Positions 54,617 through 58,548 of a DNA stretch of 64,000 nt are shown piece by piece; the stretch's first letter is position 1, and each line of letters starts with the position of its first letter. Made by a program: the position numbers and the translations under genes. The notes under the pieces were generated by a model, which worked only from the letters and a program-made list of their open reading frames with translations, did no database searches and had not been told where the DNA came from. This DNA comes from Streptomyces davaonensis JCM 4913 (lineage in GTDB: Bacteria > Actinomycetota > Actinomycetes > Streptomycetales > Streptomycetaceae): assembly GCF_000349325.1 (NCBI RefSeq), contig NC_020504.1, positions 3,320,053 through 3,384,052 of the forward strand, given 5' to 3'.

Positions 54617-56035
54617 ATGTCGGACTCCGTCAGCCGTACCCTCACCTCGACTCCGGGACTTCTGGCGTCCCTTGATCCGCTGCTGCGGGAGTGGCTGCCA
54701 CGGCAGCGGTGGTTCGCCGGGAAGGGCCGCCCGGTCACCGGGTTCTCTCTGGTCAGCGCGATCGAACTGATGCCGGCCGACAGCAGGCTCGGCCTGTACC
54801 ACCTGTTGGTACGCGCTCAGCAGTCCCCCGTGCCCGGCGACTGCTACCAGCTCCTCATAGGTGTGCGCGAGGCGCTGCCGCCCCGGCTGGCGCCCGCGCT
54901 GATCGGCCATGTGGAAGAGGGCCCGCTCGCCGGACGCACGGTGTACGAGGCCCTGTACGACCCCCGGCCCGCCGAGGTGCTCCTGGAGGCGCTGCGCAGC
55001 CGGGCCCGCATCGGCGGGCTCCTCTTCGAACGGGAGCCCGACCAGGAGATCCGCCCGGGTCTGGTGCCGCGGATGGTGACCGCCGAGCAGTCCAACTCCT
55101 CGATCGTCTACGGCGACACCTTCATCCTGAAGCTGATGCGCCGGGTCGTGCCCGGCGTCAACCCCGACCTGGAGCTGCCGCTCGCGCTGGCCCGCGAGGG
55201 CTGCCCCCGGGTACCGCCGCCGACCGCGTGGATACGGGCGGAGCTGGCCGGGGAGCCGTATGTGCTCGGGGTGCTCCAGCCCTTTGTGCAGGGCGCCTCG
55301 GACGGCTGGGAGCTGGCGCTGCGCGAGCTGGCCAAGGGCGAGGACTTCGCCACGGAGGCCCGGGCGCTCGGGCGGGCCACCGCCGAGGTGCACACCGCAC
55401 TGGCCCGCACGCTGCCCACGGTCACCCTCGGCCACACCCAGCTGGAGCTGATGACCGCGGGCATGGTGGACCGGCTGGAGGCGGCCACACAGGCGGTGCC
55501 CGCGCTGCGGCCGTACGCCCCCGGGCTGCGGTCCGCGTTCGAGGCGCTGGCCGCGCTGGCGGCCGAGGGCCGCACCTGGACCGCCCAGCGGGTGCACGGC
55601 GATCTGCACCTGGGCCAGTGTCTGCGCTCGCCCGCCGGTCAGTGGTGGCTGATCGACTTCGAGGGCGAACCGGCCAAATCGCTCACGGAACGGCGGCTGC
55701 CGCAGCCCCCGCTGCGGGACATCGCCGGGATGCTGCGCTCCTTCGACTACGCGGCCCACTCGGCCGACCCGCCGGCACCGGGCTGGGCCGAGTCCTGCCG
55801 GGCCGCGTACTGCTCCGGATACGCCGAGGTCTCCGGCGTCGATCCCCGTACCGACCCCGTGCTGCTGCGGGCGTGCGAGACGGACAAGGCGATCTACGAG
55901 GTCGTCTACGAGGCCCGCCACCGCCCCGACTGGCTCTCGGTCCCGCTGTCGGCCGTACGCCGTCTCGCCCTGGACGACGGCGCACCTCCCCCTTCCCCGC
56001 TCACCTCACCCTCGTCGAGGAGGCCCCACCCGTGA
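54617..56035 (+). CDS. mak: maltokinase
   Basis: A 472-aa kinase that phosphorylates maltose at C1 with ATP, giving the GlgE substrate. The N-terminal cap domain (LDPLLREWLPRQRWFAGKGR) is typical of actinobacterial Mak (Pep2). The aminoglycoside-phosphotransferase-like fold has the catalytic loop VHGDLHLGQCL and the metal site WLIDFEGEPAK, with DIAGMLRSFDYAAHS after it. AGGGG before the ATG gives a normal start. Its stop overlaps the glgB GTG (GTGA). Confidence 0.94.
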   Translation: MSDSVSRTLTSTPGLLASLDPLLREWLPRQRWFAGKGRPVTGFSLVSAIELMPADSRLGLYHLLVRAQQSPVPGDCYQLLIGVREALPPRLAPALIGHVEEGPLAGRTVYEALYDPRPAEVLLEALRSRARIGGLLFEREPDQEIRPGLVPRMVTAEQSNSSIVYGDTFILKLMRRVVPGVNPDLELPLALAREGCPRVPPPTAWIRAELAGEPYVLGVLQPFVQGASDGWELALRELAKGEDFATEARALGRATAEVHTALARTLPTVTLGHTQLELMTAGMVDRLEAATQAVPALRPYAPGLRSAFEALAALAAEGRTWTAQRVHGDLHLGQCLRSPAGQWWLIDFEGEPAKSLTERRLPQPPLRDIAGMLRSFDYAAHSADPPAPGWAESCRAAYCSGYAEVSGVDPRTDPVLLRACETDKAIYEVVYEARHRPDWLSVPLSAVRRLALDDGAPPPSPLTSPSSRRPHP

Positions 56036-58548
56036 CCCCCCGCCCCCCGTCCCCCGGTCCGGATCCACAACAGTCGGCCGAGCGGACGGCCGAGGAGAAG
56101 AGCGTCGTGAAGAAGGCGGCGGCGAAGAAGACCGCGGCCGTGACCAAGAAGGCGGTCGCCAAGAAGGCCGCCGCGAAGAAGGCCGCGCCCAAGAAGAAGG
56201 CCACGGCCAAGTCGGCCACCGCCGCGAAGGCCCCGGCCAAGAAGGCCGCCGCGAAGAAAGCCACCGCGAAGAAGGCCACCGCGAAGAAGGCGGTGTCCAA
56301 GAAGGCGGTGGCCAAGAAGGCTCCCGCCAAGAAGAGCCCCGCCGAGCGGGCCGTGAAGGCACTGCCCGTCGAGGTCGCCGTCTCCCCCGCCGTGGACGCG
56401 GACGACCGTGCCCGGCTGATCGCCGGTACCCATCACGCACCGCATGCCGTGCTCGGCGCGCATCCCGTGCCCGGGGGAATCGCCTTCCGGGCCTTCAGGC
56501 CGTACGCCCGTTCCGTGACCGTGCTCGCCGGGGAGCTGCGGGCCGGGCTGCACGACGACGGCGGGGGGTTCTTCTCGGGACTGCTGCCGCTGTCGGAGGT
56601 GCCGGAGTACCGGATTCTCGTGACGTACGACGGTGCGGAGCTGGAGACCGAGGACCCGTACCGCTTCCTGCCCGCGCTCGGCGAACTCGATCTGCATCTG
56701 ATCGGCGAGGGTCGCCACGAGCAGCTGTGGAAGGCGCTGGGCGCCGAGCCCATGACCCATCAGGGGGTGACCGGCACCCGGTTCACGGTGTGGGCGCCGA
56801 ACGCCCGCGGGGTGCGGCTGGCCGGCACCTTCAACTTCTGGGACGGCAGCGGGTTCCCGATGCGCTCGCTGGGCTCGTCCGGGGTGTGGGAGCTGTTCGT
56901 TCCGGCCATAGGGGAGGGTGAGCTGTACAAGTTCGAGATCACCCGGCCCGACGGTTCGCACACCCTGCGCGCCGACCCGATGGCCCGCCGCACCGAGGCC
57001 CCGCCGAACACCTCGTCGATCGTGCACGCCTCGCACCACGAGTGGCACGACGAGGAGTGGCTGGAGCGGCGCGGTCGGGTGCCGGTGCACGAGGCGCCCT
57101 TCTCGGTGTACGAGGTCCATCTGGCGTCCTGGCGCCCGGGTTTGACGTACCGCCAGCTCGCCGAACAGCTCCCGGCGTACGTCAAGGACCTGGGCTTCAC
57201 CCACGTGGAGCTGATGCCGGTCGCCGAGCATCCCTTCGGCGGTTCCTGGGGCTATCAGGTCACCGGCTTCTACGCGCCGACGGCCCGCCTCGGTACGCCC
57301 GACGACTTCAAGTTCCTGGTCGACGCCCTGCACCGGGCGGGCATCGGCGTGCTAATGGACTGGGTCCCGGCGCATTTCCCGCGCGACGACTGGGCATTGG
57401 CGGAGTTCGACGGGCGTCCGCTCTACGAGCACGAGGACCCGTTGCGCTCGGCGCATCCCGACTGGGGCACGCTGGAGTTCGACTTCGGGCGCCGCGAGGT
57501 GCGCAACTTCCTGGTGGCGAACGCCCTTTACTGGTGCGAGGAGTTCCACATCGACGGGCTGCGGGTGGACGCGGTCGCCTCGATGCTCTACCTCGACTAC
57601 TCCCGTGAGCCGGGGCAGTGGGTGCCGAATGTGTTCGGCGGGCGGGAGAACCTGGACGCGGTGGCGTTCCTCCAGGAGATGAACGCCACGGTGTACCGGC
57701 GGGCGCCGGGTGTGGTGACGATCGCGGAGGAGTCCACCGCCTGGGACGGGGTGACCCGGCCCACCGACAGCGGCGGGCTCGGCTTCGGCCTGAAGTGGAA
57801 CATGGGCTGGATGCACGACTCGCTGGGCTACCTGTCGCACGAGTCGATCCACCGCAAGTACCACCACCACGAGATGACGTTCTCGATGGTGTACGCGTAC
57901 AGCGAGAACTACGTGCTGCCGATCTCGCACGACGAAGTCGTCCACGGCAAGCGGTCGTTGGTGTCGAAGATGCCGGGCGACTGGTGGCAGCAGCGCGCGA
58001 ACCATCGGGCGTATCTGGGCTTCATGTGGGCCCACCCCGGCAAGCAACTCCTCTTCATGGGACAGGAGTTCGCGCAGGGCGCCGAGTGGTCGGAGGCGCA
58101 CGGTCCGGACTGGTGGCTGCTGGATCCGGCGTACGGCGCGGAGCCGGACCACCGAGGCGTGCGCGATCTGGTCCGGGACCTGAACGCGCTCTATCTGGAC
58201 ACCCCGGCGCTGTGGCAGCGGGACACCGACCCGGCCGGTTTCCGGTGGGTGGCCGGGGACGCGGTGGAGGACAACGTCTTCGCGTTCCTCAGGTACGCCG
58301 CCGACGGCACTCCCCTGCTGGCCGTCTCCAACTTCTCGCCGGTGGTACGGCACGACTACCGCCTCGGCGTCCCGGACGAGGTCCCGGCCTGGCACGAAGC
58401 GCTCAACACCGACGCGGCACGCTACGGCGGCGGCGACGTCACCAACCCCGACCCCCTGAAGCCGGAACCCCAGGGCCGGCACGGCCAGGCGACGAGCATC
58501 CGCCTGACCCTGCCCCCCTTGGCGACGGTGTGGCTCCGCCCCGCCTAG
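56032..58548 (+). CDS. glgB: 1,4-alpha-glucan branching enzyme GlgB with an N-terminal Lys/Ala repeat tail
   Basis: An 838-aa GH13_9 enzyme adding alpha-1,6 branches. Residues 23-101 are a low-complexity tail built of A-K-K-A units, with over 30 Lys and nearly no acidic residues; it resembles tails of histone H1-like and HupS-type DNA-binding proteins. A normal GlgB follows from about residue 125: N-terminal CBM48, nucleophile D513 in GLRVDAVASMLYLDYSR, acid E566 in TIAEESTAWDG, and SHDEVVHGKRSLVSKMPGDW. The GTG at 56032 overlaps the mak stop and follows GAGGAGG. The tail is read in frame with normal codon use, so it is not an artefact of start choice. Confidence 0.94.
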   Translation: MTPRPPSPGPDPQQSAERTAEEKSVVKKAAAKKTAAVTKKAVAKKAAAKKAAPKKKATAKSATAAKAPAKKAAAKKATAKKATAKKAVSKKAVAKKAPAKKSPAERAVKALPVEVAVSPAVDADDRARLIAGTHHAPHAVLGAHPVPGGIAFRAFRPYARSVTVLAGELRAGLHDDGGGFFSGLLPLSEVPEYRILVTYDGAELETEDPYRFLPALGELDLHLIGEGRHEQLWKALGAEPMTHQGVTGTRFTVWAPNARGVRLAGTFNFWDGSGFPMRSLGSSGVWELFVPAIGEGELYKFEITRPDGSHTLRADPMARRTEAPPNTSSIVHASHHEWHDEEWLERRGRVPVHEAPFSVYEVHLASWRPGLTYRQLAEQLPAYVKDLGFTHVELMPVAEHPFGGSWGYQVTGFYAPTARLGTPDDFKFLVDALHRAGIGVLMDWVPAHFPRDDWALAEFDGRPLYEHEDPLRSAHPDWGTLEFDFGRREVRNFLVANALYWCEEFHIDGLRVDAVASMLYLDYSREPGQWVPNVFGGRENLDAVAFLQEMNATVYRRAPGVVTIAEESTAWDGVTRPTDSGGLGFGLKWNMGWMHDSLGYLSHESIHRKYHHHEMTFSMVYAYSENYVLPISHDEVVHGKRSLVSKMPGDWWQQRANHRAYLGFMWAHPGKQLLFMGQEFAQGAEWSEAHGPDWWLLDPAYGAEPDHRGVRDLVRDLNALYLDTPALWQRDTDPAGFRWVAGDAVEDNVFAFLRYAADGTPLLAVSNFSPVVRHDYRLGVPDEVPAWHEALNTDAARYGGGDVTNPDPLKPEPQGRHGQATSIRLTLPPLATVWLRPA

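Follow-up and report, generated by a model that had tools for sequence, protein, structure and literature searches.

The product of glgB, a glycogen branching enzyme gene at 56032..58548 of a 64,000-nucleotide stretch of Streptomyces davaonensis JCM 4913 (hereafter the window), carries ahead of its enzyme part a lysine- and alanine-rich tail of a type that, judged from profile matches, is otherwise found mainly on DNA- and RNA-handling proteins in Streptomyces. We tentatively propose, with the chances close to evenly divided, that the tail of this enzyme (GlgBI) is a polycationic tether linking glycogen to the nucleoid or to RNA. This proposal is based on the predicted disorder of the tail, its kept charge, the nucleic-acid proteins with which it shares its type, its absence from the second branching enzyme (GlgBII) and the occurrence of a similar block in a second actinobacterial group. 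The tail offers a concrete candidate mechanism for placing a glycogen-making enzyme within the cell.

The N-terminal tail and the enzyme behind it

The glgB gene is read on the forward strand from a GTG start to its stop and encodes 838 amino acids, of which the first 123 form an N-terminal extension. It consists of a proline-rich leader (residues 1–22, 56032..56097, start codon included), the lysine/alanine tail (residues 23–101, 56098..56334), supported by composition, KK spacing, a Pfam HC2 match and AlphaFold2 confidence, and a linker (residues 102–123, 56335..56400) recognised by composition and the AlphaFold2 model. An earlier note on this DNA, made from its letters alone, had counted more than 30 lysines and almost no acidic residues between residues 23 and 101. 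There are exactly 30 lysines there, 31 being reached only over residues 1–123, together with 31 alanines, six valines, six threonines, three serines and three prolines; aspartate, glutamate and arginine are entirely absent, so that the net charge is +30 over 79 residues. The note was right that this composition is unlike that of the catalytic part, since residues 124–838 have a net charge of -33 with 10 lysines and 52 arginines. In the other stop-to-stop frames of the window of at least 79 residues, no 79-residue stretch holds more than 13 lysines. The KK pairs are five residues apart in 10 of 12 gaps, which is the arrangement, KK units about five residues apart, by which Streptomyces lysine repeats are recognised, and the coding DNA contains a tandem array with a 15-nt period (13.1 copies, 76% match). 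AlphaFold2, run with a 33-sequence alignment, gave a predicted local distance difference test (pLDDT) value below 50 over residues 1–111 and assigned the first helix or strand not before residue 116. AKKA-type units thus make up a polycation that is predicted to be disordered. Both lysines are constant across the 13 KK units, which was considered as a sign of selection and dropped, because the units had been anchored on KK and their constancy followed by construction.

The AGGAGG ribosome-binding site (56018..56023, forward strand) lies within the 3' end of mak, 8 nt ahead of the GTG at 56032, which in turn overlaps the mak stop codon TGA (56033–56035) as GTGA. This Shine-Dalgarno (SD) motif, followed after seven or eight nucleotides by GTGA, recurs in relatives, including where mak ends elsewhere. 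The claim that the tail is read in frame from a GTG coupled to mak therefore holds: the SD motif, the overlap and the recurrence rule out a start-site artefact, and a reading in the wrong frame is ruled out by the third-position G+C of the tail (0.97) and of the catalytic part (0.93).

Residues 124–838 (56401..58545, forward strand) form a complete branching enzyme, with N1 (GlgB_N), N2 (CBM48), alpha-amylase-type catalytic and C-terminal domains according to Pfam, a score of 995.6 bits for the TIGR01515 equivalog (cut-off 463.95) and 3k1d_A, a 1,4-alpha-glucan-branching enzyme, as best match in the PDB (E=5.6e-279). The storage-binding part, CBM48 and GlgB_N, is recognised by sequence, and its binding of glycogen is putative. 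As the GlgB_N match begins at residue 124, the protein has the roughly 100 or more residues ahead of N1 by which Wang et al. (2019) set apart 147 mostly actinobacterial "Type 3" branching enzymes, whose genuineness they questioned; for these a CBM48-like N0 domain was suggested, S. avermitilis GlgB being among the examples (PMC6339891). An extension serving as a further carbohydrate-binding domain of this kind would agree with that length and that example, but it is hardly credible here: residues 1–123 are of lysine/alanine low complexity, have no CBM48 match in Pfam and are modelled with low pLDDT, and the relative named S. avermitilis (P0054, not established to be the accession of the paper) has an extension of 128 residues with a net charge of +24. 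A folded N0 was rejected for GlgB. Type 3 is defined by length, and the words "lysine", "disordered" and "histone" occur nowhere in the main text of PMC6339891. What lengthens GlgB and its close relatives is a lysine/alanine tail, which corrects the suggested reading of Type 3 enzymes for this group.

Histone H1-like matches and the company of the tail

The proposed likeness of the tail to HupS-type and histone-like proteins agrees with its match to Pfam HC2 (PF07382, histone H1-like), which scores 43.0 bits for the whole of GlgB (cut-off 40), 42.7 bits for residues 1–123 alone and 45.3 bits in a six-frame search of the genome. GlgB is the best of six HC2 matches in its own genome and the only one above the cut-off. 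The second best is a protein with a Pfam zf-dskA_traR domain (L006), in which a lysine/alanine block like that of GlgB is joined not to an enzyme but to a DksA/TraR zinc finger; we infer from this layout that it is DdbA-like. Deletion of ddbA affects chromosome compaction (PMC11942623). The remaining four were recognised by reading as HupS, RNase E, TopA and HrdB, and NCBIfam points to the matching families (HU/IHF, RNase E/G, DNA topoisomerase I and RpoD-type sigma factors), for several of them from fragments scoring below the cut-offs. A search with the tail alone adds FtsK (NCBIfam 112 bits, below cut-off), which at C1:3056210-3056443 on the minus strand (L007) bears an AKKA-type tail at its N-terminus.

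The survey was extended to 12 genomes of the same genus, with G013–G020 left out, where 72 HC2 matches collapsed to 69 regions. A lysine-rich frame was present in 63 of these, by a cut of 11 lysines in 60 residues that was set after the values had been seen; the other six (L133, L143, L148, L157, L160 and L163) were dropped. The 63 regions belong to TopA (10), HupS, DdbA-like proteins and HrdB (nine each), FtsK and RNase E (seven each), GlgB (four), Ku, UvrA and a small protein of unknown nature (two each), and endonuclease III and an SLT transglycosylase (one each). Nucleic-acid proteins thus account for 56 of the 63, and the only carbohydrate-acting enzymes are GlgB and the single SLT transglycosylase. 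In 54 regions the protein body and the lysine-rich stretch share one open frame and were identified by the body match. L105 was taken as HupS by reading only; L121 (Ku), L131 (UvrA), L161 (endonuclease III), L129 (SLT), L109 and L152 were assigned or assessed by profile scan, and L146 and L171 were identified by their likeness to L121 and L131 (67% and 91%). Masked letters occur in L159, L160 and L161. The endonuclease III (L161, genome G010) has an N-terminal lysine/alanine tail of about 75 residues. The two small proteins (L109, L152) begin with a GLGLAVGAGYLLGRTKK-type sequence, are acidic in the middle and end in a C-terminal lysine/alanine tail, with only weak H1-like or Rv3852-family matches.

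Lysine-repeat tails have been described on Streptomyces TopA, HupS, HrdB and Ku; the lysine-rich domains of Ku and of mycobacterial HupB are linked with contact to DNA, and the repeats of TopA with processivity (PMC7398561). The GlgB tail shares with them the AKKA-type repeats within the same genus but is N-terminal and attached to a sugar enzyme, and GlgB is not listed in the consulted text of that paper.

The extension in relatives and in the second branching enzyme

Relatives were ranked by residues 124–838 only, because whole-protein ranking favours tailed relatives, and the best 120 of 7994 scored proteins were retained; they are close kin and not independent, and their starts are as annotated. 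The nearest enzyme core is that of S. cinnabarinus (96%). At least 60 residues precede the enzyme in 108 of the 120 (90–325 residues, median 169.5), and 103 of these extensions have a net charge of +10 or more (median of the 103, +30), the other five being P0136 (-1), P0164 (+5) and the acidic P0147, P0154 and P0159. Lysine outnumbers arginine by 3948 to 398 in the 108 extensions, compared with 1228 to 6047 in the 120 cores, and five residues is the commonest KK spacing in the 103 (591 gaps).

A broader draw of 101 genomes of the genus, own genome included, gave a GlgB match in 97. Only matches reaching the first 10 query residues were used, partial ones such as that of G053 and one of G040 being left out, which yielded 124 upstream stretches: 86 of GlgBI type, 24 of GlgBII type, 13 unclassed and one without a usable start (L229). 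A start with V-T or V-S and GTGA defined GlgBI, which makes class and leader interdependent. The unclassed stretches include L184 of genome G076; five others were inspected, of which L223 and L287 hold masked letters and three were left unclassed. VTPR or VTAR opens 62 of the 86 GlgBI-type genes, and in 81 the SD motif is matched at five or six of six letters, a count that holds partly by construction since the start picker favoured SD and GTGA. The extension has at least 40 residues in 75 of the 86; by charge, 75 are net positive and two neutral, some being proline/alanine-rich or weakly charged. Across these sequences, charge is kept far better than length, and the lysine/alanine form can be described as a single branch within a broader GlgBI extension that is mostly basic. 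In G069, G085, G103 and G105 the GlgB match is split into two parts that lie in different reading frames, in some cases with a stop, as frameshifts or assembly errors would produce.

Constraint on the codons of the tail seems weak to moderate. In 11 pairs from ten loci, hand-picked and non-independent, the ratio of non-synonymous to synonymous substitution (dN/dS) was 0.23–0.59 for tails and 0.08–0.18 for cores, the alignments being of low complexity with many gaps.

The genome encodes a second branching enzyme, GlgBII (L002, C1:9284670-9286835), which is 80% identical to GlgB in the enzyme from residue 109 on but whose leader, MALRDTSLPEPSGP..., is without a single lysine and forms no tail. 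Among the 24 GlgBII-type genes drawn from other genomes, leaders are likewise short (23–69 residues, median 25) and never net positive. A GlgBII-type gene was found in 16 of the 19 genomes with a lysine/alanine-type GlgBI and in six of the 65 others (Fisher p 9e-10, kinship ignored, and own-genome GlgBII entered by hand), an association that may reflect one event. As for the three exceptions, G001 and G009 hold only pieces of a second GlgB, and G048 has a second GlgB of another leader type.

A comparable block is present in the GlgB of Modestobacter (L053), whose 326-residue extension contains PAKKA- and PAKRTRKAAAKK-type blocks. We ranked 120 proteins by the enzyme part of L053, its own entry included; many are unnamed metagenome proteins, and the named ones come from Modestobacter, Blastococcus, Geodermatophilus and Petropleomorpha, which are Geodermatophilaceae. 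At least 60 residues precede the core in 113 of the 120, and a 60-residue stretch with a net charge of +8 or more occurs in 108 of these 113. Lysine exceeds arginine in these extensions (1640:865), which are often net negative as a whole (median -3) because an acidic or proline-rich linker follows. The block in Modestobacter, Blastococcus and Geodermatophilus was probably gained independently of the Streptomyces tail. Within L053 (1919-5185) the extension has two RRVEETTEAVRAASEAD segments, and behind each of them stands a PAKKA- or PAKRTRKA-type block. Other actinobacterial GlgB leaders, viewed by eye, uncounted and with unsettled starts, mostly seemed short or non-basic; basic stretches were seen in the same way, again with unsettled starts, in Nocardiopsis (L040), L052 and L065.

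A possible tie between glycogen and the nucleoid

According to the proposal of a tether, the tail would bind polyanions irrespective of their sequence, chromosomal DNA being the most probable partner and RNA a possible one, while the N1 and CBM48 modules and the active site of the same molecule would hold a glycogen chain. GlgBI could then act as a bivalent link that would keep the growing alpha-glucan on or near the nucleoid, and GlgBII would make untethered glycogen. Since GlgBII is tailless, the two isoenzymes could be set apart by location and not only by timing. Bruton et al. reportedly described tissue-specific branching isoenzymes of Streptomyces in 1995, and the tailed and tailless pair in one genome bears on why there are two.

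Other storage bodies are tied to the nucleoid or DNA by proteins in which a storage-body part is joined to a lysine/alanine-rich histone-like DNA-binding region: PhaM of C. necator for poly(3-hydroxybutyrate), PhaF of P. putida for polyhydroxyalkanoate, AlgP of P. aeruginosa for polyphosphate (polyP) and MLDS of R. jostii for lipid droplets (PMC9049629, PMC9239181, PMC5504291, PMC13052382). GlgB has in common with them a lysine/alanine-rich repeat region that is predicted to be disordered. They are described there as proteins of the granule or droplet surface with C-terminal repeats, whereas GlgB is a polymer-modifying enzyme, concerns glycogen and has its tail at the N-terminus. The GlgB tail is a candidate for glycogen alongside the histone-like tethers reported for these four stores. 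A wider version of the proposal, which we consider possible but doubtful, is that GlgBI is the glycogen counterpart of PhaM, PhaF and AlgP, a polymer builder combined with a chromosome tie through an H1-like tail; that actinobacterial GlgB acquired tails of this sort on two or more occasions, in Streptomyces and in Modestobacter and its kin; and that in Streptomyces the full lysine/alanine form occurs almost only alongside a tailless second branching enzyme, so that nucleoid-bound and free glycogen would come from different isoenzymes. We found no paper describing the tail as such among the open-access papers searched; the 1995 and 2000 S. coelicolor branching-enzyme papers and a 2017 lysine-repeat survey (PMC5714199) lay outside the search, and an earlier mention there is possible. 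The word "glycogen" is absent from the main text of a 2025 review of bacterial organelle positioning.

Several observations weigh against a tether. The HC2 match is driven by composition and hence speaks for a resemblance in type rather than for common descent: scores are below the cut-off in the nearest relative (P0002, 37.9) and in P0054 (32.0), and the NCBIfam families for H1-like proteins (NF038053, 44.4 against a cut-off of 80) and Hc2 (NF038052, 39.1 against 135) are not reached. The tail may work like a histone H1-like protein, and it is not a member of that family. The earlier note had taken kept length and charge among orthologs as the measure, with absence or random length in close relatives speaking against a function; charge is indeed widely kept, but length is not, ranging over the values given above and reaching 886 residues in one genome, and some genes have lost the tail, so that on the note's own measure the evidence counts in part against a function. 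Twelve of the 120 relatives have fewer than 30 residues ahead of the enzyme, some perhaps through short start calls, nine of the 86 GlgBI-type extensions are net negative, and the full lysine/alanine form is confined to 19 of the 86 (own gene included, L184 not among them), a part of the genus. In at least three GlgBI genes (L181, L198, L208) the tail is cleanly lost: only 32–73 nt separate the mak stop from the enzyme, and this interval holds a GTGA start together with a complete or partial SD motif. Thus catalysis need not require the tail, and these natural losses offer material for comparison. Pair by pair, dN/dS in the tail amounts to about 2 to 7 times the core value, and among sites with lysine in either member 56–83% have it in both, some exchanges being between lysine and glutamate. 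Finally, a 2024 review describes bacterial glycogen as being without a protein content that clusters its particles (PMC11046441), and a 2016 paper on S. venezuelae describes alpha-glucan particles, their placement relative to the nucleoid not being stated in the text consulted.

Three of the 120 relatives (P0147, P0154, P0159) carry strongly acidic extensions as annotated, which also speaks against a kept polycation. In G076, the genome with the 886-residue extension, a VTPRPP leader is followed by a basic block of 303 residues (net +48, 59 lysines) and then by 583 acidic/proline-rich residues (net -73), so that the nearest 499 residues are acidic/proline-rich and the basic block lies further upstream. 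This GlgB (L298) is encoded on the reverse strand, and its 583-residue part consists of SEPGL-type repeats. Some annotated relatives may have been called from starts inside such repeats, and P0122, which stands beside the three in the leaf order of the tree, has a lysine-rich and then an acidic extension. Judged by their likeness to G076, P0147, P0154 and P0159 are likely short start calls and thus probably no real counter-examples.

Many of the same facts would be expected if a short basic GlgBI extension had merely been expanded by slippage of a GCC-AAG-AAG-type unit and tolerated as a harmless bristle. Such drift would account for the 15-nt array, the variable length, the clean losses, the raised dN/dS, the exchange of lysine at 17–44% of aligned lysine sites and the proline/alanine-rich or weakly charged extensions on other GlgBI proteins. 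It explains less readily why 75 of the 86 extensions are net positive, why tail dN/dS stays below 1, why such tails are concentrated on nucleic-acid proteins and why a similar block exists in Modestobacter and its kin; the preference for lysine over arginine in proteins whose cores prefer arginine also speaks against drift, though copying one unit would give the same. On balance we regard drift as a somewhat unlikely explanation, but it is the main rival of the tether and a serious one.

The partner could also be polyphosphate or another non-nucleic polyanion, GlgBI being recruited to polyP granules or a condensate. AlgP has an H1-like domain of KPAA type and is found together with polyP granules (PMC9239181), but the company of the GlgB tail is one of DNA and RNA proteins and includes no polyP enzyme among the identified HC2-matched proteins, which makes this partner improbable. 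It is very unlikely, too, that the tail is mainly a platform for acetylation, losing its charge when acetyl donors are plentiful and so tuning an electrostatic contact. HupS, whose tail is of this kind too, undergoes acetylation and is a substrate of CobB1; the terms "GlgB", "glycogen" and "branching" are found nowhere in the main text of that study (PMC11229371). Such a platform would be less a substitute for the tether model than a modification of it, and acetylation could tune a tether much as CobB1 does for HupS. We give equally little weight to an intramolecular role, in which the tail would fold onto the acidic catalytic part and act as its brake or stabiliser. The charges nearly cancel (+27 against -33, -6 for the whole protein), but the cores of the 12 short-leader relatives (mean -34.3) are as acidic as those of the 108 with a tail (-35.9). 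Core acidity hence does not vary with the tail, and charge compensation of an acidic core was discarded as unsupported.

The glgB gene is the last of a GlgE-pathway cluster on the forward strand, preceded by glgE (50609..52819; Pfam GlgE_dom_N_S and GLGE_C), a treS-like gene (52816..54516; Alpha-amylase and Malt_amylase_C), which we take to be treS from the known gene order, and the overlapping maltokinase gene mak (54617..56035; Mak_N_cap and APH). A glgP-like phosphorylase gene (46337..48955, reverse strand; DUF3417 and Phosphorylase) is divergent from the cluster. Downstream of glgB, a convergent gene on the minus strand (window positions 58712–60964) has UvrD/AAA_19-type helicase matches.

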